Part shown: piece by piece, positions 19,314 through 61,139 of the stretch
Layout: each line of letters starts with the position of its first letter
How positions within the stretch are numbered: position 1 is the first letter of the stretch
Assembly: GCF_000718085.1 (NCBI RefSeq)
Contig: NZ_JOEC01000001.1
Location: 248,001 to 312,000, forward strand
From: Mycetocola saprophilus
Lineage (GTDB): Bacteria; Actinomycetota; Actinomycetes; Actinomycetales; Microbacteriaceae
Direction of reading: 5' to 3'
Length of the DNA stretch: 64,000 bases
Made by a program: the position numbers and the translations under genes
Notes under the pieces: generated by a model
Databases searched by the model: none
Told to the model about the DNA's origin: nothing
Seen by the model: the letters and a program-made list of their open reading frames with translations, nothing else

Positions 19314-20441
19314 ATGGCTTCACCCACGGATCGCGAAAAAGCACTCGAAACCGCCCTTGCCCAGATTGACCGCCAGTTCGGTAAGGGCTCGGTTATGCGC
19401 CTCGGCAGCGATGAGCGCGCCCCCGTAGAAATCATCCCCACCGGCTCGATTGCTCTGGACGTCGCGCTCGGCGTGGGAGGTCTGCCCCGCGGCCGCATCA
19501 TCGAGATCTACGGCCCGGAGTCCTCGGGTAAGACCACGCTGACCCTGCACGCTATCGCCAACGCTCAGCGCCAGGGCGGCATCGCCGCCTTCATCGACGC
19601 CGAGCACGCCCTCGACCCCGAGTACGCCAAGAAGCTGGGTGTCGACATCGACGCGCTGCTGGTTTCTCAGCCCGACACCGGTGAGCAGGCGCTGGAAATC
19701 GCCGACATGCTGATCCGCTCGGGCTCGATCGACCTGGTTGTCATCGACTCCGTAGCCGCCCTGGTGCCCCGCGCCGAGATCGAGGGTGAGATGGGAGACT
19801 CGCACGTGGGTCTGCAGGCCCGACTGATGTCGCAGGCGCTGCGAAAGATCACCGGTGGCCTCAACCAGACCAAGACCACCGCGATCTTCATCAACCAGCT
19901 GCGTGAGAAGATCGGTGTCTTCTTCGGAAGCCCGGAAACCACCTCCGGTGGTAAGGCACTGAAGTTCTACGCCTCGGTTCGCCTCGACATCCGCCGCATC
20001 GAGACCCTCAAGGACGGTTCGGACGCCGTGGGTAACCGTACCCGCGTCAAGGTGGTCAAGAACAAGATGGCTCCGCCCTTCAAGCAGGCCGAGTTCGACA
20101 TCCTCTACGGTGTGGGTATTTCCCGCGAGGGCAGCCTGATCGACTTCGGTGTCGAGCACGGTCTGGTCAAGAAGTCCGGTTCCTGGTACACCTACGATGG
20201 AGACCAGCTGGGTCAGGGTAAGGAAAATGCCCGTAACTTCCTGATCAACAACCCCGATATCGCCGCCGACATCGAGAACAAGCTGCTGGCAAAGCTCGGC
20301 ATCGGCGCGGCCGGTGCTCAGGCCAAGGCCGATGCTGCCGCCGCCGAGGCCGCGGCCGAGGCCAAGGCGACCGCCGCCAAGAACGCGCCCGCCGCCCCGG
20401 CGAGCGAGGCACCGGCGGTAGCGCTCAAGCGCGGCGCCTAG
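19314..20441 (+). CDS. recA: Recombinase RecA
   Basis: RecA (375 aa) forms filaments on single-stranded DNA, catalyses strand exchange and triggers LexA self-cleavage. Walker [10 protein letters not shown] near residue 64, the [12 protein letters not shown](S)PETT segment of loop L2, and the start [20 protein letters not shown] are all typical. No intein is present. The C-terminus carries an Ala-rich tail of about 45 residues. Expression is under the LexA box at 19034. recX follows after 4 nt. Confidence 0.99.
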
Positions 20442-20445
20442 TCCC

Positions 20446-21891
20446 ATGGTCCGCTTCATCGATGAGGGGCCTTCCTCGGAAGGCCCCGAAACCGAGAATG
20501 GTGGGCCCTCACGTTTCGGCGGGGCCGCCGGCGTATCCTCCCTCGGGCCTTGGCCCTCCTCGCGTTCGCGCGGGGAGGCCTCGGTCGAGGAGCGAGAGGC
20601 CGCGGCTCCGTCGGCGTTTGCCCCCACTTTCGCGCCCGCCTGGGGTGTGATCCCGGCATCGGCCGAACCGACCCAGGACTCCGCCGCGGCATCGGATTCG
20701 CGAGAGTCTCCAGGCTCCTCGGTGCCCGCGGAGCATTCGGATTCGGAGTATTCGACCACTGAATGTTCGGATTTTGAGCGTTCGCATTTGGCACCTTTGG
20801 ATTCGGCACCTTTGGATTCGGTGTCCTCAAAATCGGTGCCGTCGGACTCGGCACCTTCGCATTCGGGGCCTTCGGATTCGACGTCTGCTGAGCCCGCGGC
20901 GTCGGCCGCGGCTCACCCGACCTTCGCCCCGGCCTGGGGCGCGCCGAACCGCGTCGCCCCACTGTCTGAAGCAGCGGTGACTGACGAGGCAGTGACTGAA
21001 ACGGCGGTGACTGATGATGCGGAGACCGAGGAGTCGCTGGCCCCGGTGATTTCGCTGGGCAGGCGGCGGTCGACACCGATACGCTCGGGCGCTCGCGAAG
21101 CAGATTCGGCCGTGGCCGAAGACGCGACCTCTTCATCTGTCACCGCGGCATCGGTAACGGCGGACACGGATGAGACAGGGAAGCCTGCGGTACGCGCAAT
21201 CGTCTCCGATCTCGCGACCCGGGCGCGCAAGACCATCGCCGCCGATCCGGCAGATCCGGCCGCATCGGTCGTAGCGCCCGCGCATACGGCGGCCTTCGAG
21301 GAGTATCCCGACACCGAGATTCCCAGCTTCGCCGCCCGGTTCGGGCTGGACGAGGAGGAAGACTTTGAGGACGACGGCGAGTCCGAGGAGGAGATTGTTC
21401 CGCCCACCTTCGATGAGGCGGTAGAACTCCTTGTGCGTCGGCTTGCCCGATCTGCGCTGAGCCGTGCCGAGGTGATTTTCGAGGTCGAGCGGCTGGGCCT
21501 GGAAAACGACGGTGCCGAAGCCGTGGCCGAACGTCTGGACGAACTTGGCTATCTGGATGATGCGGTGCTGGCCGAACAGCTCAAGCACTCCCTCTACGAT
21601 CGAAAGGGTAAGTCCCGCCAGGTGGTGGCCCGGGAAATGGCGCAGCGGAAGATCCCAAACGAGGTCATTCAGGACGCGCTGGCCGAGGTTGCCGATGACG
21701 ACGAGCTTTCCGCCGCCACCGCGCTGGCCAAGAAGCGGGTCGGGCAGATGAGCTCGATCGATGATGCCGCCGCCGAACGTCGCCTCACCGGCTTTCTCGC
21801 CCGTCGGGGATACCCCGGATCAATCGTGCGCGAAGCCGTGCGGGCGGCACTGGCAACCCGTGGGTCCCGCGGACGCGTGACCTTCCGGTAG
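20446..21891 (+). CDS. recX: RecX regulator with a very long low-complexity N-terminal extension
   Basis: RecX inhibits RecA filament growth. The conserved RecX region is only the last 160 or so residues (from PPTFDEAVELLVRRLARSAL to the C-terminus, with RLDELGYLDDAVLAEQL). Ahead of it lies an extension of about 320 residues, rich in Ser, Ala, Pro, Asp and Glu, with pentapeptide-like repeats (APLDS, VPSDS, APSHS, GPSDS) encoded by a degenerate 15-bp repeat at about 20785-20885, and two copies of the phrase FAPAWG. The usual length is 150-270 aa, so 481 aa is exceptional. ATG 20446 is 4 nt after recA; an internal start cannot be excluded. Confidence 0.88.
   Translation: MVRFIDEGPSSEGPETENGGPSRFGGAAGVSSLGPWPSSRSRGEASVEEREAAAPSAFAPTFAPAWGVIPASAEPTQDSAAASDSRESPGSSVPAEHSDSEYSTTECSDFERSHLAPLDSAPLDSVSSKSVPSDSAPSHSGPSDSTSAEPAASAAAHPTFAPAWGAPNRVAPLSEAAVTDEAVTETAVTDDAETEESLAPVISLGRRRSTPIRSGAREADSAVAEDATSSSVTAASVTADTDETGKPAVRAIVSDLATRARKTIAADPADPAASVVAPAHTAAFEEYPDTEIPSFAARFGLDEEEDFEDDGESEEEIVPPTFDEAVELLVRRLARSALSRAEVIFEVERLGLENDGAEAVAERLDELGYLDDAVLAEQLKHSLYDRKGKSRQVVAREMAQRKIPNEVIQDALAEVADDDELSAATALAKKRVGQMSSIDDAAAERRLTGFLARRGYPGSIVREAVRAALATRGSRGRVTFR
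20466..20487 (+). promoter_or_regulatory. Perfect hairpin at the recA/recX junction
   Basis: GGGGCCTTCC (20466-20475) pairs with GGAAGGCCCC (20478-20487), lying 24 nt after the recA stop and inside the first codons of recX. Such a stem may cut transcription of recX relative to recA or block ribosomes, as described for recA-recX junctions elsewhere. Confidence 0.6.
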
Positions 21892-52778: not shown

Positions 52779-52809
52779 TGTGTTCCTCTGCTAGACTGAT
52801 ACGCGGCTA

Positions 52810-52825
52810 CGGAACATCTGTTCCG
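52810..52825. promoter_or_regulatory. Palindrome with LexA-box core between DUF1844 and infC
   Basis: CGGAACATCTGTTCCG contains GAAC-N4-GTTC (52812-52823) within a longer perfect inverted repeat (ACGGAAC/GTTCCGT). The base before GAAC is G rather than the consensus C. About one core match per 64 kb is expected by chance, so this could be fortuitous or a site for another regulator. Confidence 0.35.
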
Positions 52826-52855
52826 TTACGAAAGAGGATATTCTCCCACCCGCGT

Positions 52856-53041
52856 TTGACCGTAGTACTAGGTTACCGGGTAGTTACACTCCGCCAAGAC
52901 CCTCCTCGGAGGGTCTGGTAGTCAGGGTGTTGGCCGGGTAGTGACCTTTGGTCACACGTATCCGGTGTGTAATTTCTCTCTCGCCTCGGTATGAATCATT
53001 TCGGACTGAGTGGCCTCGAGTATCAATCAGAGGAGTTACGC
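52856..53041 (+). promoter_or_regulatory. infC-rpmI-rplT promoter and structured leader
   Basis: A TTGACC (52856-52861) and TA-rich hexamers further on suggest a promoter near 52856-52890. The leader then has a perfect hairpin (52897-52905 with 52908-52916), a second (GTGACC/GGTCAC, 52941-52955), and AGGAG at 53031-53035. Leaders of this operon are regulatory in other bacteria (L20 or IF3 control). Confidence 0.5.
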
Positions 53042-53621
<580 letters not shown>

Positions 53622-53629
<8 letters not shown>

Positions 53630-53816
53630 GCAGAAGACCCACTCGGGCGCTAAGAAGCGCTTCAAGCTCACGGGCTCCGGCAAGATCAAGAAGCAGCAGT
53701 CGGGTATGCGACACAACCTTGAGGTGAAGTCCAGCCACCGCAAGCGTCGTCTGAACCAGGACCAGCTCGTGTCCAAGGCCGACACCAAGAACATCAAGAA
53801 GCTTCTCGGTAAGTAA
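53622..53816 (+). CDS. rpmI: 50S ribosomal protein L35
   Basis: A 64-aa basic protein starting [20 protein letters not shown], the L35 signature. GGAGGAAAG lies just before ATG 53622, inside the end of infC. Second gene of the infC-rpmI-rplT operon. Confidence 0.98.
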
Positions 53817-53849
53817 GCTCGACGGACATAGAGAGATAGAAGTAGAGAA

Positions 53850-54233
53850 ATGGCAAGAGTAAAGCGGGCCGTCAACGCCCACAAGAAGCGTCGCGTAATC
53901 CTCGAGCGTGCCTCGGGTTACCGCGGACAGCGTTCGCGTCTGTACCGTAAGGCCAAGGAGCAGGTTACCCACTCCTTCGTTTACAACTACAACGACCGTA
54001 AGAAGCGTAAGAACGACTTCCGTCGCCTGTGGATCCAGCGTATCAACGCCGCATCCCGTGCAAACGGCCTCACCTACAACCGTCTGATCCAGGGTCTGGG
54101 TCTGGCCGGTATCGAGGTTGACCGTCGTATCCTCGCCGAGCTGGCAGTCAACGAGCCGGCAACCTTCGCCGCTCTGGTTGAGTCGGCCAAGAAGGCCCTC
54201 CCGGCCGACACCTCGGCTCCCAAGGCTGCGTAA
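53850..54233 (+). CDS. rplT: 50S ribosomal protein L20
   Basis: A 127-aa 23S-binding protein, [15 protein letters not shown] at the N-terminus and the L20 region SYVYNY-like [16 protein letters not shown]. Length is family-typical with a short Ala-rich tail. It ends 20 nt before a strong terminator. Confidence 0.98.
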
Positions 54234-54253
54234 GCTTTAGCTTCATTTACATT

Positions 54254-54290
54254 CGGCCCCATCGCCTCGGCGGTGGGGCCGTTTGTTTTT
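54254..54290 (+). terminator. Intrinsic terminator of infC-rpmI-rplT
   Basis: A 13-bp stem (54254-54266 and 54269-54281, one G-U) followed by TTTGTTTTT. A similar stretch (TTCGGCGGTCGGGCCGTTTG, from about 54314) repeats its right arm and tail about 49 nt downstream but lacks a matching left arm. Confidence 0.92.
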
Positions 54291-54407
54291 CCGGCCGCGG
54301 AACCTTCGTCGGGCTTCGGCGGTCGGGCCGTTTGTTGTTTCCGGGTCTGTTGTCCAGCGGTCGGGGTGGGTTTTCCGCTGCGCCGCCCACGCGGGTAGAA
54401 TGGCCGG

Positions 54408-55208
54408 GTGCTAGATAATCCCCGTGCCCCCCGTATCCGTGCCGTCGCAAGGCTTGGCCGTCGTGCCGTGCGTGAAGAGACCGGCCTCTTCCTGCTCGAG
54501 GGCCCGCAGGCGGTTGTCGAAGCGCTGACCTACCGCCCCGAGGTCATGCTTGAGCTGTACGTGACCCCCACCGCGCTGGAGCGCTACACCGATCTCGGTG
54601 AGGCCGCGGTTGCCGCCGGGATGGACGTCGAGTTTGTGAGCGAAGAGGTCATCAACGCGATGGCCGACACCGTGACCCCGCAGGGCGTCATCGCTGTCGC
54701 CCGCCAGTTCCCGACCTCCGCCAAGGACATCTTCCGCGACGAGCCCAAGCTCATCGCGATCCTCGAGGAGGTCCGCGACCCGGGCAACCTCGGGACCATC
54801 ATCCGTGCCGCCGACGCCGCCGGCGCCGACGGCGTGATCCTCACCGGACGCAGCGTCGACCTCTACAACCCCAAGGTGGTGCGCTCCACCACCGGATCGC
54901 TGTTCCACCTGCCCGTCGCCGTGGGCCTGGAACTCCCCGACGTCCTGCTGCTGGCCCGCGAGGCCGGCGTGTCCGTGATTGCCGCGGACATCAAGGGTGA
55001 CTCGCTCCTCGACGTCCGCAACAGCGGTGTCCTCGCAGAGCCGACCGCCTGGCTGTTTGGCAACGAGGCACGCGGCCTCACCGATGAAAACCTTGCCCGC
55101 GCCGAGCGCGCGGTGAGCGTGCCGATCTTTGGTGCCGCCGAGTCGATGAACCTGGCCACCGCGGCCTCGGTCTGCCTCTACGAGAGTGCCTTCGCGCAGC
55201 GCTCCTAG
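54408..55208 (+). CDS. TrmH/SpoU-family RNA 2'-O-methyltransferase
   Basis: A 266-aa SPOUT methyltransferase. An N-terminal substrate-binding region (GLFLLEGPQAVVEAL) precedes the SpoU domain with motifs RDPGNLGTIIRAADA, LFGNEARGL and SVPIFGAAESMNLATAASV. These proteins methylate rRNA or tRNA ribose; the position between rplT and pheS is typical. TAGAAT (54396-54401) is 6 nt before GTG 54408, so it is likely leaderless. Confidence 0.93.
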   Translation: MLDNPRAPRIRAVARLGRRAVREETGLFLLEGPQAVVEALTYRPEVMLELYVTPTALERYTDLGEAAVAAGMDVEFVSEEVINAMADTVTPQGVIAVARQFPTSAKDIFRDEPKLIAILEEVRDPGNLGTIIRAADAAGADGVILTGRSVDLYNPKVVRSTTGSLFHLPVAVGLELPDVLLLAREAGVSVIAADIKGDSLLDVRNSGVLAEPTAWLFGNEARGLTDENLARAERAVSVPIFGAAESMNLATAASVCLYESAFAQRS

Positions 55209-55221
55209 GCCTCCGCACCCT

Positions 55222-55257
55222 CGCGAGCCACCCCGCAGTTTTGCGGGGTGGCTCGCG
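55222..55257 (+). terminator. Hairpin after the SpoU methyltransferase
   Basis: A perfect 16-bp stem (55222-55237 and 55242-55257) with the loop GTTT, 13 nt after the stop. Confidence 0.87.
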
Positions 55258-55361
55258 GCGTTTGTGGATCCGATCAAAGGCGGACGCATGATATGCGACA
55301 CGCTCTATTCCCAGTGGTGACAGGCTCGGGTACTGCCCGTACTCCGACGTAACGTGAGCGT

Positions 55362-56156
55362 ATGGAGTCGATGTCGATACCGAGGTTTACCCGTGTCTCA
55401 CGCAGTGGGTGTGAGGCGCCGCTGCTTGCGCTCTCCGCGGTCACCACGCACACCGCCGAACGTCGAGTGCTCAACGGCGTCAATCTGACCATTTCGCGTG
55501 GCGAAGCCGTTGCGGTGTTGGGCCTGGATGCGGCCGATGGATCGCAGCTGTGCCGGATCGTCAACGGCAGCGAGCACTGCGATTCCGGGCAGGTTTTGGT
55601 CGATGGCCGACCGATCCCCGGCGGGCGACATGAACGGGAGCTGCTGCGCGCAGACCTGGGTCTTATTTCTCCCCGACACGACCCGAATCCCCGGATGAGT
55701 GTGATCGAGAGTGTCACCCGCGGGCAGATTCGGACTCGGGGGATCTCGCCGATTCGTGCCTTCGAACGAGCGCGGGCACTCCTGGCCCGGGCTGGTGTCT
55801 TGGGCCATGACCGGGAGGATGTCGCTGAACTGTCGGTATCGGGGCGTCGCCGGGTGCAGCTTGCCCGCGCCCTGGCCCTCGAACCGCGCCTCCTGCTGCT
55901 AGACGATGTCACTCGGGGGCTTGATGCATACACGTATCGAGACGTAATCGATCTGGTCGACGGGGCTCGAACCGAGGGGATCGCACTCCTGGTCGTGACC
56001 GATGACCTGCGTTTTGTGCGTGCGACCGCCACGCGGATCGTGGTGCTGTGCGGGGGACTGGTTGTCGAAGACCAGGCCGCGGACGATTTTTTCCTCCATC
56101 CGGTGTCCGTCTCGGCACGAGAAATTGTGGCCGGTTTTGCCGCCCCGGGGGCGTAA
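55362..56156 (+). CDS. Degenerate (pseudo-)ATPase of the polar amino-acid ABC family
   Basis: A 264-aa intact protein that aligns end to end with the functional ATPase encoded 230 nt downstream, but each ATP-handling motif is changed. Walker A is GLDAADGSQ (residues 54-62) with no Lys; the Q-loop Gln is Pro (LISPRHD); the signature is LSVSGRRRV rather than LSGGQ; Walker B ends LLLLDDVTRGLD with Asp for Glu; and the H-loop His is Asp (VVTDDL). ATG 55362 has TAACGT (55350-55355) 6 nt before it. The open frame with no stop or frameshift suggests selection. It may be a regulatory partner, or a decaying duplicate. Confidence 0.85.
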   Translation: MESMSIPRFTRVSRSGCEAPLLALSAVTTHTAERRVLNGVNLTISRGEAVAVLGLDAADGSQLCRIVNGSEHCDSGQVLVDGRPIPGGRHERELLRADLGLISPRHDPNPRMSVIESVTRGQIRTRGISPIRAFERARALLARAGVLGHDREDVAELSVSGRRRVQLARALALEPRLLLLDDVTRGLDAYTYRDVIDLVDGARTEGIALLVVTDDLRFVRATATRIVVLCGGLVVEDQAADDFFLHPVSVSAREIVAGFAAPGA

Positions 56157-56385
56157 CGCAGTTGGCAGAAGCCCGCGAATTCCCGGGAATCTGAGCGTGT
56201 TCGGCGCACAAAACTTTTCGGACAAATGCATGCCAAAAACAGTATATATATCGGATTTCACCTCAAATATGGAAGAAGTCCGAACAAAATAAGCATCTGA
56301 TCAGCCCGTTGTATAACGGTCACAAATAGGTAACAAGCGTGTTTATTCGTGTCGTTTGAGTGGGCACACTGACTAGCGTGAGGGC
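56157..56385 (+). other. AT-rich gap between the degenerate ATPase and the importer operon
   Basis: A 229-nt region distinctly richer in A/T than its surroundings, with ATATATAT near 56243, an imperfect inverted repeat (TCGGATTT... AAGTCCGA, about 56252-56284) and GTTGTATAACGG near 56310. TAGCGT (56374-56379) lies 6 nt before the next ATG. Probably the control region of the glutamate importer. Confidence 0.45.
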
Positions 56386-57174
56386 ATGGAACCAACGTTG
56401 ATACCCCAAACCACCAGCGTTCCGATCGTCGGCCGCGGAGAACCCCTCGTGGTGCTCTCCGATGTCAACAAGCACTATGGCGATCTGCACGTTCTCAAAA
56501 ACATCTCCACGTCGGTTGCACGCGGTGAGGTCGTGGTCGTGATCGGGCCCTCGGGGTCCGGGAAGTCCACGTTCTGCCGGGCGATCAACCGTCTGGAAAC
56601 CATCGACAGTGGCACGATCACGATCGACGGCAAGCAGTTGCCCGAGGAGGGGGCGGGGCTCGCCAAGCTCCGCGCCGATGTGGGCATGGTGTTCCAGTCC
56701 TTCAATCTCTTCGCCCATAAAACCGTGCTGGAAAACGTGACCCTGGGCCCCATCCGGGTGAAAAAGATGTCGACCAAACAGGCGAACGAGCGGGCAATGA
56801 CGCTGCTGGAACGCGTGGGTGTGGCCAATCAGGCCAATAAGCTGCCCGCCCAGCTCTCCGGCGGTCAGCAGCAGCGCGTCGCGATCGCCCGATCGTTGGC
56901 GATGAGTCCGAAGCTGATCCTGATGGACGAGCCCACCTCGGCGCTCGACCCGGAAATGATCAACGAGGTCCTCGATGTCATGGTGGAGCTCGCCAAGGAG
57001 GGCATGACGATGATCGTGGTGACCCACGAGATGGGCTTTGCCCGCAAGGCTGCCGACCGCGTGCTGTTCATGGCGGACGGCGAAATCGTCGAGGACGAAA
57101 CCCCGGAAACCTTCTTCACCAACCCCTCATCCGAGCGTGCGCGCGACTTCCTCGCCAAGATTCTCGACCGGTAA
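56386..57174 (+). CDS. gluA: Glutamate-type ABC transporter ATPase
   Basis: A 262-aa ATPase of the GluA/GlnQ family: Walker A GPSGSGKST near residue 54, Q-loop VFQSFNLF, signature LSGGQQQRVAIARSLA, Walker B LILMDEPTSALD and H-loop THEM all intact. ATG 56386. It is followed 22 nt later by the binding-protein gene, in the gluA-gluB-gluC-gluD order known in corynebacteria. Amino-acid specificity (glutamate rather than glutamine or others) is inferred from order and similarity. Confidence 0.93.
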   Translation: MEPTLIPQTTSVPIVGRGEPLVVLSDVNKHYGDLHVLKNISTSVARGEVVVVIGPSGSGKSTFCRAINRLETIDSGTITIDGKQLPEEGAGLAKLRADVGMVFQSFNLFAHKTVLENVTLGPIRVKKMSTKQANERAMTLLERVGVANQANKLPAQLSGGQQQRVAIARSLAMSPKLILMDEPTSALDPEMINEVLDVMVELAKEGMTMIVVTHEMGFARKAADRVLFMADGEIVEDETPETFFTNPSSERARDFLAKILDR

Positions 57175-57196: not shown

Positions 57197-58081
57197 ATGA
57201 AGCGTTCGAAAGTATCTCTTGTAGCCCTCGCCGCGGCCTCGGCCCTCCTCTTCACAGCCTGTTCCACCTCCGACGGCGGCAACGCCGGCGGCAGCGGGGG
57301 AGGCTCCGGGGACAACCCCACCGTGGTAGAAAACCCCACCTTCGAGGCGGGAACCACGATGGAGAAGCTCGCTAAGGCCGGCAAAATCACCGTCGGGGTG
57401 AAGTTTGATCAGCCGCTGTTCGGTGAGAAGGGCCTCAACGGGGCCGAGGGTTTCGATGTTGAAATCGCTAAGATCATCGCCGGCCAGCTGGGTATTCCCG
57501 CCGACAAGATCGAATGGAAGGAAGCGGTTTCGATCAACCGCGAGCCGTTTATCCAAAAGGGCGAGGTTGACATGGTGGTCGCCACGTACACGATCAACGA
57601 CAAGCGCAAGGAAGTTATCGACTTTGCCGGTCCGTACTATATTGCCGGACAGTCGCTGCTGGTTAAGGCAGATAACAACGACATCAAGTCCGAAAAGGAC
57701 ATCGTGGGTAAGCCCGTGTGCTCGGTGACCGGATCCACCCCGGCCGAAAACCTCGCCAAGCTCGGCGCCGACCCGGTCCTCACCGACGCCTACAGTAACT
57801 GCCTTGAGCCGCTGCGTTCGGGGAAGGTCGTGGCGGTCTCGACCGACAACGTGATCCTCGCCGGCCTCGCGGCCAAGAACGAAGGCGAGTTCAAGCTTGC
57901 CGGTGACCTCTTCACCAAGGAGCCCTACGGCATTGGCTTGAAGAAGGGCGATACCGCGTTCAAGGACTTCATCAATAAGGCCCTGGAGGAGTCGTATAAG
58001 GACGGCGCCTATAAGAAGGCCTGGGAATCGACCGCGGGCAAGATCCTGCCGTTTGTTGAGGGACCCAAGATCACCGAATAG
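57197..58081 (+). CDS. gluB: Glutamate-type ABC transporter substrate-binding lipoprotein
   Basis: A 294-aa family-3 binding protein. A lipoprotein signal with lipobox FTAC (Cys near residue 22) and Gly/Ser linker is followed by ITVGVKFDQPLFGEKG, GFDVEIAKIIAGQLGI and the NREPFIQKGEVDMVVATYTI ligand region. AAAGGAG lies 6 nt before ATG 57197. A strong hairpin follows the gene. Confidence 0.94.
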   Translation: MKRSKVSLVALAAASALLFTACSTSDGGNAGGSGGGSGDNPTVVENPTFEAGTTMEKLAKAGKITVGVKFDQPLFGEKGLNGAEGFDVEIAKIIAGQLGIPADKIEWKEAVSINREPFIQKGEVDMVVATYTINDKRKEVIDFAGPYYIAGQSLLVKADNNDIKSEKDIVGKPVCSVTGSTPAENLAKLGADPVLTDAYSNCLEPLRSGKVVAVSTDNVILAGLAAKNEGEFKLAGDLFTKEPYGIGLKKGDTAFKDFINKALEESYKDGAYKKAWESTAGKILPFVEGPKITE

Positions 58082-58087
58082 CCCCAC

Positions 58088-58129
58088 AACAGCTGTTCTG
58101 CGGGGCGAACACCCCGCAGAACAGCTGTT
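58088..58129 (+). terminator. 18-bp hairpin between binding protein and permease genes
   Basis: A perfect 18-bp stem (58088-58105 and 58112-58129) with a 6-nt loop lies between gluB and gluC, followed by TCCCCCTC. It would limit read-through or protect the 3' end, giving more binding protein than permease. Confidence 0.8.
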
Positions 58130-58152
58130 TCCCCCTCGAAAGGAGGCGGTGA

Positions 58153-58800
58153 ATGAACGTTATTATTGACAACCTCGATCGATACTTTTCGGGCTTTGTA
58201 CTCACCCTGCAGCTGTTTGTGGTCGCGGGGATCGCGGCGTTGATTATCGGCACGGTCGTTGCGATCATGCGGATCTCGCCGGTGGGAGCGCTGCGCACCT
58301 TCGCGACGGTATACACCGAGGTGGTGCGAAACACCCCGCTGACCCTGATCCTGTTTTTCTTCGCGTTTGTGGCCCCGCAGCTGGGGCTCGGCCTGGACTA
58401 TAAGTTCCTGGCGATGATCGGCCTGAGTCTCTACACCTCCCCGTTTGTGGCCGAGGCGCTGCGCTCGGGGGTCAACGGCGTGCCGATCGGGCAGGCCGAG
58501 GCTGCCCGGAGTATTGGGCTGGGATTTGGCCAGACCGTGACCCAGGTGGTGCTGCCCCAGGCGGTGCGGATGACCATTCCGCCACTGATCAACGTGATGA
58601 TCGCGCTGGTCAAGAACACCTCGGTGGCCGGTGGATTCTTTGTGGCCGAGCTGGTCACCATCGGTAAGGAACTGGCCAACGCCAACGGGAACGCGGTGAT
58701 CCCGGTTCTGCTGGGTGTGGCCACGTTCTACCTGTTGATTACGATTCCGCTGGGCATCCTGGCCGGATACTTGGAGAAGAAGTGGGCGGTGTCGCGATGA
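58153..58800 (+). CDS. gluC: Glutamate-type ABC transporter permease GluC
   Basis: A 215-aa permease with about five transmembrane segments and the family phrases TEVVRNTPLTLILFFFAF and EALRSGVNGVPIGQAEAARS. AAAGGAGG precedes ATG 58153. The TGA overlaps the ATG of the next permease. Confidence 0.93.
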   Translation: MNVIIDNLDRYFSGFVLTLQLFVVAGIAALIIGTVVAIMRISPVGALRTFATVYTEVVRNTPLTLILFFFAFVAPQLGLGLDYKFLAMIGLSLYTSPFVAEALRSGVNGVPIGQAEAARSIGLGFGQTVTQVVLPQAVRMTIPPLINVMIALVKNTSVAGGFFVAELVTIGKELANANGNAVIPVLLGVATFYLLITIPLGILAGYLEKKWAVSR

Positions 58801-59708
58801 GTGGATCCTCTGTTCTGTTTGATGCGCCCGGTCCCAAGGCTCGGCGTCGCTCGCGCATCACCTCGGTGATCGTGACGCTCGTGGTCATCGGCGGGCTCGC
58901 CGCCATCGGGATTGTGCTTGGACAGCCTCGCGAAGCAGCCGGTGGGATTACCCTGCCCGGAGTCTGGGATGCCTCACGCTGGGATGTTGTCACGAACCCT
59001 GCCCTCTGGTCACAAATCGGCGGCGGTGTGCTGAACACGCTCAAGGCGGCGCTCGTCGCGGCAGCGCTTGCGTTGGTTCTGGGTGTCGTTTTCGCGCTGC
59101 TGCGCACGGCGCGCACTCGATGGGTGCGTGTCCCGGCGACCATTGTGCTGGAGTTCCTTCGAGGCATGCCCGTGCTGTTGATGATGCTTTTCATCTTGCT
59201 GGCATTCTCCAGTGGTTCCTATCTGGCCGTGGTTCTCGGGCTGGGTCTCTATAACGGCGCGATCATCGGGGAGGCGCTGCGCGCCGGCATCGCCTCGCTG
59301 CCCAAGGGACAGCGAGAGGCCGGGCTGAGCATCGGGCTGACACCCTTTGCTACCCGGATGCGAATCGAGTTTCCGCAGGCATTTAGGCAGATGCTCCCGA
59401 TCGTCGTGGCCCAACTTGTGGTGCTGCTCAAGGACACCTCGCTGGGATTCATCGTCGGTTACCCGGAGCTGATCCGCACCACGATGAACAACCTCGGAAG
59501 CGCCCTGGGCAATAAGTACCTGTTCACGCTGTTCATCATCACCCTGGTCATCTACCTGGTAATGAACCTGCTGCTCTCGGCCTTTGCACGCTGGCTGGCC
59601 CGGCGCTCGGACCGTGCGCAGCGCGGCGGTGCCGAACCCGAAAAGCCCGGTGGCGGAGACGCCCCGGGCGCGGAGCCCGGTCCCGCGGCCGCCGTACAGG
59701 CGAGGTAG
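58797..59708 (+). CDS. gluD: Glutamate-type ABC transporter permease GluD
   Basis: A 303-aa permease. The phrases VLEFLRGMPVLLMMLFILLA and EALRAGIASLPKGQREAGLS mark the family's permease core. The C-terminus carries a Gly/Ala/Pro-rich cytoplasmic tail of about 40 residues. ATG 58797 overlaps gluC. Confidence 0.93.
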   Translation: MSGSSVLFDAPGPKARRRSRITSVIVTLVVIGGLAAIGIVLGQPREAAGGITLPGVWDASRWDVVTNPALWSQIGGGVLNTLKAALVAAALALVLGVVFALLRTARTRWVRVPATIVLEFLRGMPVLLMMLFILLAFSSGSYLAVVLGLGLYNGAIIGEALRAGIASLPKGQREAGLSIGLTPFATRMRIEFPQAFRQMLPIVVAQLVVLLKDTSLGFIVGYPELIRTTMNNLGSALGNKYLFTLFIITLVIYLVMNLLLSAFARWLARRSDRAQRGGAEPEKPGGGDAPGAEPGPAAAVQAR

Positions 59709-60029: not shown

Positions 60030-61139
60030 ATGCATTTTGTCAAAAGACCAGGACTCGTTTTATCACTGAGTTCCGTCATCGTTATGGGGGTCATATTGGC
60101 TTCCGCAACTCCCTCGCTCGCATCTTCGCCGGAAAGCGAGGCCGTGTCCGAGTTGAAAAATATTCCCGCAGAGCTCAAACTTTCGAGCTCCGCACAGGCC
60201 TCGTTAGATTTCGCTTCCAGTGATGGGAACACGACTCTCTCATCTAGAGGTTTTGAAGGTTCTACCACCAGAGTGACAATTTCTACTGGGACGGAAAGTC
60301 AGGGCAGGGTCGTAGTTCTCGAAGGTAAAAAGACCGCAGAACACCAGGTGGAAGGCTATGAGGTTTTGAAACGAGAAGATACCGGCGTCTCGACCTTTGC
60401 TAAAGCAATTGATGGTGGAGCTCAGATTATCTTCTCGGGTAAAAACAAAGCGGCTACTGAGAAATTCACGTTGCAATTCGAGCAGCAAATTACGTCAATT
60501 GATTCGCTTGGGGAAGGCTTCCAAAGTGTGGTTTTCTCGGATGGGACTGCGCTCGTTATTCAACCGGCGTGGGCCTTTGATGCATCGGGCCGGGCACTCG
60601 AGACCAAGTACGAGTATTCGGGACAGAGCCTGCGTCAGCGCGTTGAAGTAAACGCAGACACCAAGTTTCCGGTTTCGGCAGACCCTGCCTGGAGCTATCA
60701 GCATGAGGCTGGAGTTGGAGGAACCACTCCTACTCAAGCTCGTGATGCGCTCAATCAGCCCGGGCGCTTCAACCAAATATTCCCCGTAGATGGTGCCCCT
60801 GCAAGCATCCCCTCTTCGGGACAGCTGCTGCCCCTGACAGTCACTCTTGTGGGGCCGATTACTGCAAACTTCAACTGCACATTTGGCTCTCAGTCTTATA
60901 GCAACGAAGGCAGCGACGAATTTTGGTCATTTGGACTGAACGCGACGCAAGACCATGTGGATGGTGCTGGCTCGACCATTCGCTTTTCTGTATCGAAGTC
61001 GCATGGGGACGGATCTAAGCGGCTACTCGTGTATGCGAAGATAATTCGTTCTGACCCTCTGGGCATCGGACGACAGGCATACAAAGACGGCGCGGTGCAA
61101 AAATGGAATCAGTTTGCCTCGAACCTCAGTGCAATTTAG
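60030..61139 (+). CDS. Secreted protein of unknown function, AT-richer than its surroundings
   Basis: A 369-aa protein with an N-terminal signal peptide (MHFVKRPGLVLSLSSVIVMG, predicted cleavage near residue 32 after ATPSLAS). No catalytic motif recognised. A phrase FPVSADPAWSYQHE, of a kind seen in secreted actinobacterial proteins, is in the centre (about residue 212). The C-terminal third contains a single Cys and WSFGLNATQDHVDG. Codon use is much less GC-biased than neighbours, suggesting recent transfer. AAGGAG lies about 7 nt before ATG 60030. It may be a secreted effector, enzyme or surface factor. Confidence 0.75.
   Translation: MHFVKRPGLVLSLSSVIVMGVILASATPSLASSPESEAVSELKNIPAELKLSSSAQASLDFASSDGNTTLSSRGFEGSTTRVTISTGTESQGRVVVLEGKKTAEHQVEGYEVLKREDTGVSTFAKAIDGGAQIIFSGKNKAATEKFTLQFEQQITSIDSLGEGFQSVVFSDGTALVIQPAWAFDASGRALETKYEYSGQSLRQRVEVNADTKFPVSADPAWSYQHEAGVGGTTPTQARDALNQPGRFNQIFPVDGAPASIPSSGQLLPLTVTLVGPITANFNCTFGSQSYSNEGSDEFWSFGLNATQDHVDGAGSTIRFSVSKSHGDGSKRLLVYAKIIRSDPLGIGRQAYKDGAVQKWNQFASNLSAI

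Follow-up and report, generated by a model that had tools for sequence, protein, structure and literature searches.

A GluA paralogue with altered catalytic motifs is maintained beside the glutamate importer genes of Mycetocola saprophilus

Mycetocola saprophilus encodes, next to the genes that we take to be gluABCD, a second, free-standing version of the importer's ATPase which has lost the catalytic and the pairing motifs, yet selection retains the protein. The gene lies in a stretch of 64,000 nucleotides, referred to as the window, and was compared between the window's own genome (G000), a genome that is probably M. lacteus (G001) and two further Mycetocola genomes (G002 and G003). The explanation that we regard as the best one, and which as a whole has about an even chance of being right, is a non-hydrolytic paralogue with a binding role outside the importer, carried on a divergent block. 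If confirmed, this would be an example of a transport motor turning into a non-enzyme. The carriers are a few mushroom- and soil-associated bacteria, and retention of the gene in them suggests a changed job.

An intact reading frame with altered ABC motifs

The gene, its motifs as located by alignment with GluA, and the importer genes are listed below.

55362 to 56156, plus strand: non-catalytic GluA paralogue of 264 amino acids, family type I (open frame, ABC_tran match, same-site orthologue in G001, ω = 0.088)
55521 to 55547, plus strand: former Walker A, GLDAADGSQ (GPSGSGKST in GluA; GLDAAGKS in three of the five family members)
55662 to 55682, plus strand: former Q-loop, LISPRHD, without Gln (VFQSF in GluA aligned to ISPRH)
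55830 to 55859, plus strand: former signature and start of the following helix, LSVSGRRRVQ (LSGGQQQRV in GluA aligned to LSVSGRRRV)
55890 to 55913, plus strand: Walker B, LLLLDDVT, with Asp replacing the catalytic Glu (LILMDEPT in GluA)
55995 to 56012, plus strand: former H-loop, VTDDLR, with Asp replacing His (VTHEM in GluA aligned to VTDDL)
56386 to 57174, plus strand: gluA, intact ATPase of the GluA/GlnQ type and parent-type paralogue (profiles; 100% protein identity in G001)
57197 to 59708, plus strand: remainder of the importer, with gluB at 57197-58081, gluC at 58153-58800 and gluD at about 58800-59708 (comparison with G001)

From its ATG start the frame runs over 264 codons without a stop, and the protein is about 35% identical to GluA in the alignment, with no gap column across the first 257. 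A preliminary description of this DNA had noted an intact frame of this length collinear with GluA as well as changes in five motifs (Walker A Lys, Q-loop Gln, signature, Walker B Glu and H-loop His), and the alignment bears out both points. None of the five features of a catalytic ABC ATPase, i.e. Walker A Lys, catalytic Glu, switch His, Q-loop Gln and LSGGQ, whose roles are general knowledge for this protein class, is present in the window protein (0/5), and all motifs are intact in 28 of 28 GluA-type relatives compared as a control (L050 to L077). Beyond the changes listed at first, the A-loop aromatic residue is missing (HYG in GluA, HTA in the paralogue) and the D-loop is altered (SALDPE to RGLDAY).

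Both profile score and fold place the protein among the ABC nucleotide-binding domains (NBDs) of PF00005: it matches ABC_tran with 65.2 bits (cut-off 25; GluA 129.5), and the predicted structure is a normal NBD (mean pLDDT 88.5), the model of which compares with TTHA1159 at a TM of 0.92. Set against importer NBDs of the GluA/GlnQ/ArtP type (gluA; TTHA1159, PDB 4u00/4u02; ArtP, PDB 2olj), the catalytic motifs are all altered and the score stays far below the GlnQ model NF007027 (128.8 bits with a cut-off of 379), although this cut-off is not decisive because the intact neighbour GluA misses it too (319.1 bits).

As a peculiarity of composition, the window protein has no lysine in its 264 residues and 33 arginines, compared with 14 and 15 in GluA. 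Given the composition of 36 further, hand-picked ORFs of the window, the lack of Lys has a chance of 0.0013. A Lys-free protein as a shield from pupylation was considered and rejected, as a search of G000 turned up no Pup ligase (a match in C. glutamicum was the only one among 14 control genomes), one or two Lys per 284 to 491 amino acids also occur in other ORFs and the type II protein described below has two.

ABC domains with a weakened site are best known as heterodimer halves alongside a working site. In the open-licence literature we found no report of an importer NBD having an inactive paralogue that stands alone; the papers on inactive or degenerate ABC sites concerned, by title or abstract, PatAB, CydDC and the heterodimeric BmrCD. 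The excerpt of PMC4046567 describes two likenesses, since BmrD also has Asp for the catalytic Glu and TM287/288 has a non-canonical switch motif. In contrast to the paralogue, which is a free-standing gene product that has lost the pairing motifs as well, the NBDs of BmrCD and TM287/288 are fused to membrane domains and have an intact partner.

Occurrence, family types and origin

Within the genus, the paralogue is present in two of the four Mycetocola genomes searched, the window's own included (G000 and G001). The G001 orthologue occupies the same site and has no internal indel, while in G002 and G003 gluA directly follows trmH and the importer is present without the paralogue. A six-frame search of the trmH-gluA gap for a relic of the gene gave best scores at shuffle level in G003 and G002 (reached by 82 and 71 of 100 shuffles). 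On a broader scale, a profile built from three members was run against 398 Microbacteriaceae genomes drawn from a larger group, with scoring of six candidates for each genome among the results shown; 226 had a match at E <= 1e-50 and only two of the 398 the paralogue, G000 with 525 bits and G001 with 478 bits, the best other match being gluA of G003 with 215 bits. Protein searches, which scored the roughly 8000 candidates with most shared words, found the group in four records (P0003, P0124, which apart from the chosen start is the protein of G001 itself, P0125 and P0126) and thus, with the window protein, five distinct members. A contig search of genomes, from which records very near the window's genome were possibly left out, yielded eight loci of 23-30% identity and no orthologue, and a plasmid search yielded 1381 records, all below 60% identity, three of the five listed being annotated as amino-acid ABC ATP-binding proteins.

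The members fall into two types, which are about 48-50% identical to each other. Type I consists of the window protein and the M. saprophilus protein P0003 (249/261 identical residues), type II of the proteins of M. lacteus, Mycetocola sp. BIGb0189 and a metagenome (183/250 to 240/262). The type II protein of G001 carries a repetitive acidic Pro/Glu/Ala tail at its C-terminus (L039 6058-6141, minus strand), and the window protein is without it. In all five members Asp stands at the catalytic Glu and at the switch His, and the Q-loop Gln, the GG of LSGGQ, the A-loop aromatic residue and the GluA D-loop are changed throughout, with differing replacements, whereas loss of the Walker A Lys is confined to type I (2/5), the other three members having kept it. 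Conservation of the five motif changes, which the preliminary description had named as a check, therefore applies to Glu and His and stops short of Walker A; intact motifs or a frameshift were found in none of the five. Because both Asp replacements are universal and the Lys persists in three members, ATP hydrolysis was probably lost before the nucleotide-binding Lys. The two natural types, one having the P-loop Lys and one lacking it, would make this order of loss, hydrolysis and then nucleotide binding, directly testable.

The consensus P-loop GLDAAGKS in these three members is also what a nucleotide-binding switch would build on, in which at least type II binds ATP and acts by binding or very slow turnover. 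This would be in line with BmrD, given its Asp for the catalytic Glu, and with the slow turnover reported for degenerate sites in the excerpt of PMC4046567. However, H-loop His, Q-loop Gln, A-loop aromatic residue and the GG of LSGGQ are gone from 5/5 members, P0125 additionally has Glu in place of the Walker B Asp, and type I has lost the P-loop Lys, so the switch cannot be the common function if this Lys is required, so that we consider this explanation quite unlikely.

As to the origin of the family, 107 positions are invariant in the aligned members (three or fewer members for the first 20 positions), and 48 of these differ from three GluA, including the P-loop Ser-to-Asp and the His-to-Asp changes and eleven changes to Arg. 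These shared derived residues and the 100% bootstrap of the paralogue group in a protein tree are evidence for a single origin, and two independent duplications were rejected on these grounds. The start region points to the source of the copy:

55350 to 55355, plus strand: putative -10 element TAACGT, 6 bases 5' of the ATG, with a presumably leaderless start (shared motif)

The paralogues and the gluA genes of the four Mycetocola genomes share DNA from this putative -10 through the ATG to codon 7, and TA(A/G)CGTG...ATGGA is common to the paralogues of G000 and G001 and to gluA of G000-G003. A simple sigma-70 scan gave no promoter-like site, and one terminator-like site, as by chance, fell within the gene. 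At the protein level, the first 20 residues of the window protein resemble two GluA with scores reached by 1 and 14 of 5000 shuffles, those of the G001 protein more weakly (106 and 45 of 5000), and the N-terminal pattern M(E/D)xx(L/S)IP occurs in 7 of 28 GluA compared. Shared DNA, N-terminal resemblance and gapless collinearity support a tandem duplication of gluA with its promoter, which would have taken place beside gluA in the ancestor of part of Mycetocola. Against a tandem origin, the long-branched paralogue group sits with distant outgroups in the protein tree and not with the Mycetocola GluA, a placement that we ascribe to long-branch attraction. The copy would subsequently have lost its hydrolysis residues (Glu and His to Asp, Q-loop Gln and LSGGQ) and kept the NBD fold.

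Purifying selection and conserved surfaces

The paralogues of G000 and G001, the one genome pair on which the selection estimate is based, align over 260 codons with no internal gap and diverge by 0.33, 0.31 and 0.61 at codon positions 1, 2 and 3, i.e. twice as much at third positions as at the others (P=5e-14). Codon maximum likelihood (ML) gives ω = 0.088 (dN 0.43, dS 4.9, saturated) and rejects ω = 1 (2ΔlnL = 99.6), and in likelihoods at fixed ω values above about 0.2 are outside the plausible range. NG86 gives a dN of 0.445, a dS of 1.338 and an ω of 0.33, and the value is uncertain between 0.09 and 0.33 because dS is saturated. The G001 assembly has 9% contamination; its paralogue copy lies on one contig with flanks near-identical to those of the window. 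For the neighbours, codon ML in the same pair gives 0.000 (gluA), 0.003 (trmH), 0.025 (gluC) and 0.063 (gluD). Constraint thus acts on the paralogue, though less tightly than on its neighbours (ω of 0.088-0.33 versus 0.000-0.063), and the ratio is not near 1, a value that would have contradicted the preliminary description.

A functionless gene in slow decay, which stays open by chance in GC-rich DNA, would fit the weaker constraint and the occurrence in 2/398 genomes, but is very improbable in view of the rejection of ω = 1, the doubled divergence at third positions and the five members without stop or frameshift. In a neutral mutation simulation open frames were kept in 10 of 300 cases at 0.3 substitutions per site and in 2, 1, 1 and 0 of 300 at 0.5, 0.8, 1.3 and 2.0, with a mean of 4.7-8.2 stops over the range 0.5-2.0; the G001 copy, with an observed identity of 58%, falls between the settings 0.5 and 0.8. 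Codon ML and simulation both argue against a decaying pseudogene. An antisense gene was also dismissed, as its 320-aa frame (55274-56236) is open in G000 but has three stops in the aligned G001 stretch.

Asp for Glu and Asp for His are common to both types, which is most simply explained if the selection measured here acted for the most part after the loss of hydrolysis. Loss of catalytic residues in the orthologues, presumably followed by purifying selection, would make the paralogue a retained pseudoenzyme, i.e. a functional non-hydrolytic protein. The pseudo-ATPase with intact fold kept by selection that the preliminary description had proposed is in agreement with ω = 0.088, a collinear frame in two genomes and the predicted NBD fold (mean pLDDT 88.5); its further suggestion, a regulatory partner of the glutamate importer, is less well supported by the distribution of conserved residues.

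This distribution was assessed over the 237 positions covered by all members, in hand-chosen regions and with no correction for several tests. Overall 96/237 positions are invariant, compared with 20/31 in the helical subdomain (P=0.003), 9/11 in the helix after the signature (P=0.006) and 14/22 in P-loop, Walker B and H-loop (P=0.019). Residues 70-100 are variable (5/31, P=0.002), and so are coupling groove/Q-loop and D-loop, with 2/17 together (P=0.009; groove alone P=0.11, D-loop alone P=0.04). A regulatory subunit which pairs with GluA or docks on GluCD and, being hydrolysis-dead, slows or gates uptake would account for the position next to gluABCD on the same strand, the descent from gluA and the preserved NBD fold, and degenerate NBDs do function beside intact ones in heterodimers (excerpt of PMC4046567). 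However, GluA is 100%, GluC 98% and GluD 91% identical between G000 and G001, so that an importer partner should retain its docking faces; these are poorly conserved, and binding of a non-importer partner is therefore favoured. Should the type II block stem from a different species, the importer of that donor may have been unlike the present one. Besides, a heterodimer with GluA would probably be without a complete consensus ATP site, as the Walker motifs of GluA would face LSVSG or LSNDQ and its LSGGQ the dead Walkers, and G002 and G003 carry the importer without the paralogue. We therefore regard an importer subunit as unlikely.

In the preferred explanation, a binding role outside the importer, the paralogue most likely no longer acts via the GluCD permease. 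A protein or ligand would be bound by the helical subdomain, the post-signature helix and what was once the nucleotide pocket, now remodelled and more acidic (P-loop GLDAA, Walker B and H-loop TDD), and the paralogue would serve as a sensor or scaffold consisting of one subunit. Type I (M. saprophilus) has in addition lost the P-loop Lys and probably binds no nucleotide, and a nucleotide-free scaffold is possible; type II (M. lacteus) may bind nucleotide without turnover. Binding of a partner other than a permease by one NBD subunit has a precedent in PhnK, with the difference that PhnK has kept its catalytic motifs (excerpt of PMC9947105); the kinship of the paralogue to PhnK and PhnL, non-transporter ABC proteins of C-P lyase, is shown for the fold only.

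A divergent block between G000 and G001

The gene is embedded in DNA that sets the two genomes apart:

55209 to 56270, no strand: hyperdivergent block of about 1 kb, right edge approximate (identity of G000 and G001 in 100-bp bins)

Identity is 48-69% in the bins of 55201-56200 and 76% in 56201-56300, compared with 88-98% in 54201-55200 and 90-98% in 56301-57100. Non-coding identity is 93% between rplT and trmH, 80% between gluB and gluC and 63% between trmH and the paralogue, a value at which it has to be considered that shuffled sequences align at 57%, though with a far lower score. Among the window frames of at least 150 codons compared with G001, the paralogue has a dS of 1.27, whereas the other frames not flagged as shadows reach 0.637 at most, with the exception of the antisense frame to the paralogue (1.21); the dS of the paralogue is comparable in order to that of gluA between G000 and G003 (2.7) or G002 (3.1). 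As fast protein evolution alone would not raise silent and non-coding divergence, the two blocks appear to have separated long before their flanks, and one was probably swapped by recombination. The pattern points to two old alleles at one site, with exchange through recombination, and raises the separate question of what separates them and moves them between species.

A hyperdivergent block amid conserved flanks could also mark a fast-evolving locus under diversifying selection, for instance by a phage, a toxin or a changing partner, with alleles exchanged between species, and the raised silent and non-coding divergence would fit. Only two types are seen, however, and no defence or phage gene is linked, which makes this decidedly unlikely. 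A more far-reaching and rather doubtful reading is an ABC fold turned into a stand-alone non-ATPase sensor, with an acidic ligand or metal pocket formed by the P-loop Ser-to-Asp and His-to-Asp changes beside the Walker B acids, a pocket that both deeply diverged allele types would conserve and that would pass between species with the block. If true, it would be a fast-evolving recognition locus derived from a housekeeping importer subunit.

Several further features were seen in this comparison. A strong GC-rich hairpin 3' of trmH (55223-55256; near 7020-7060 of L039 in G001, minus strand) is kept in both genomes, with differing loop and surroundings; it is absent from the list of the terminator scan because it has no T-run. 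A 369-aa frame after gluD (60030-61139), whose start looks secreted-like by eye, has no match in the compared G001 stretch. The stretch of genes that we take to be infC-rpmI-rplT (window 52801-54000) is 100% identical to G001 in all 12 of its 100-bp bins, even at silent and non-coding sites, unlike trmH and the glu genes with their many silent differences. A second strongly divergent gene, at 20422-21888, has 64% amino-acid identity and 82 gap columns between G000 and G001.
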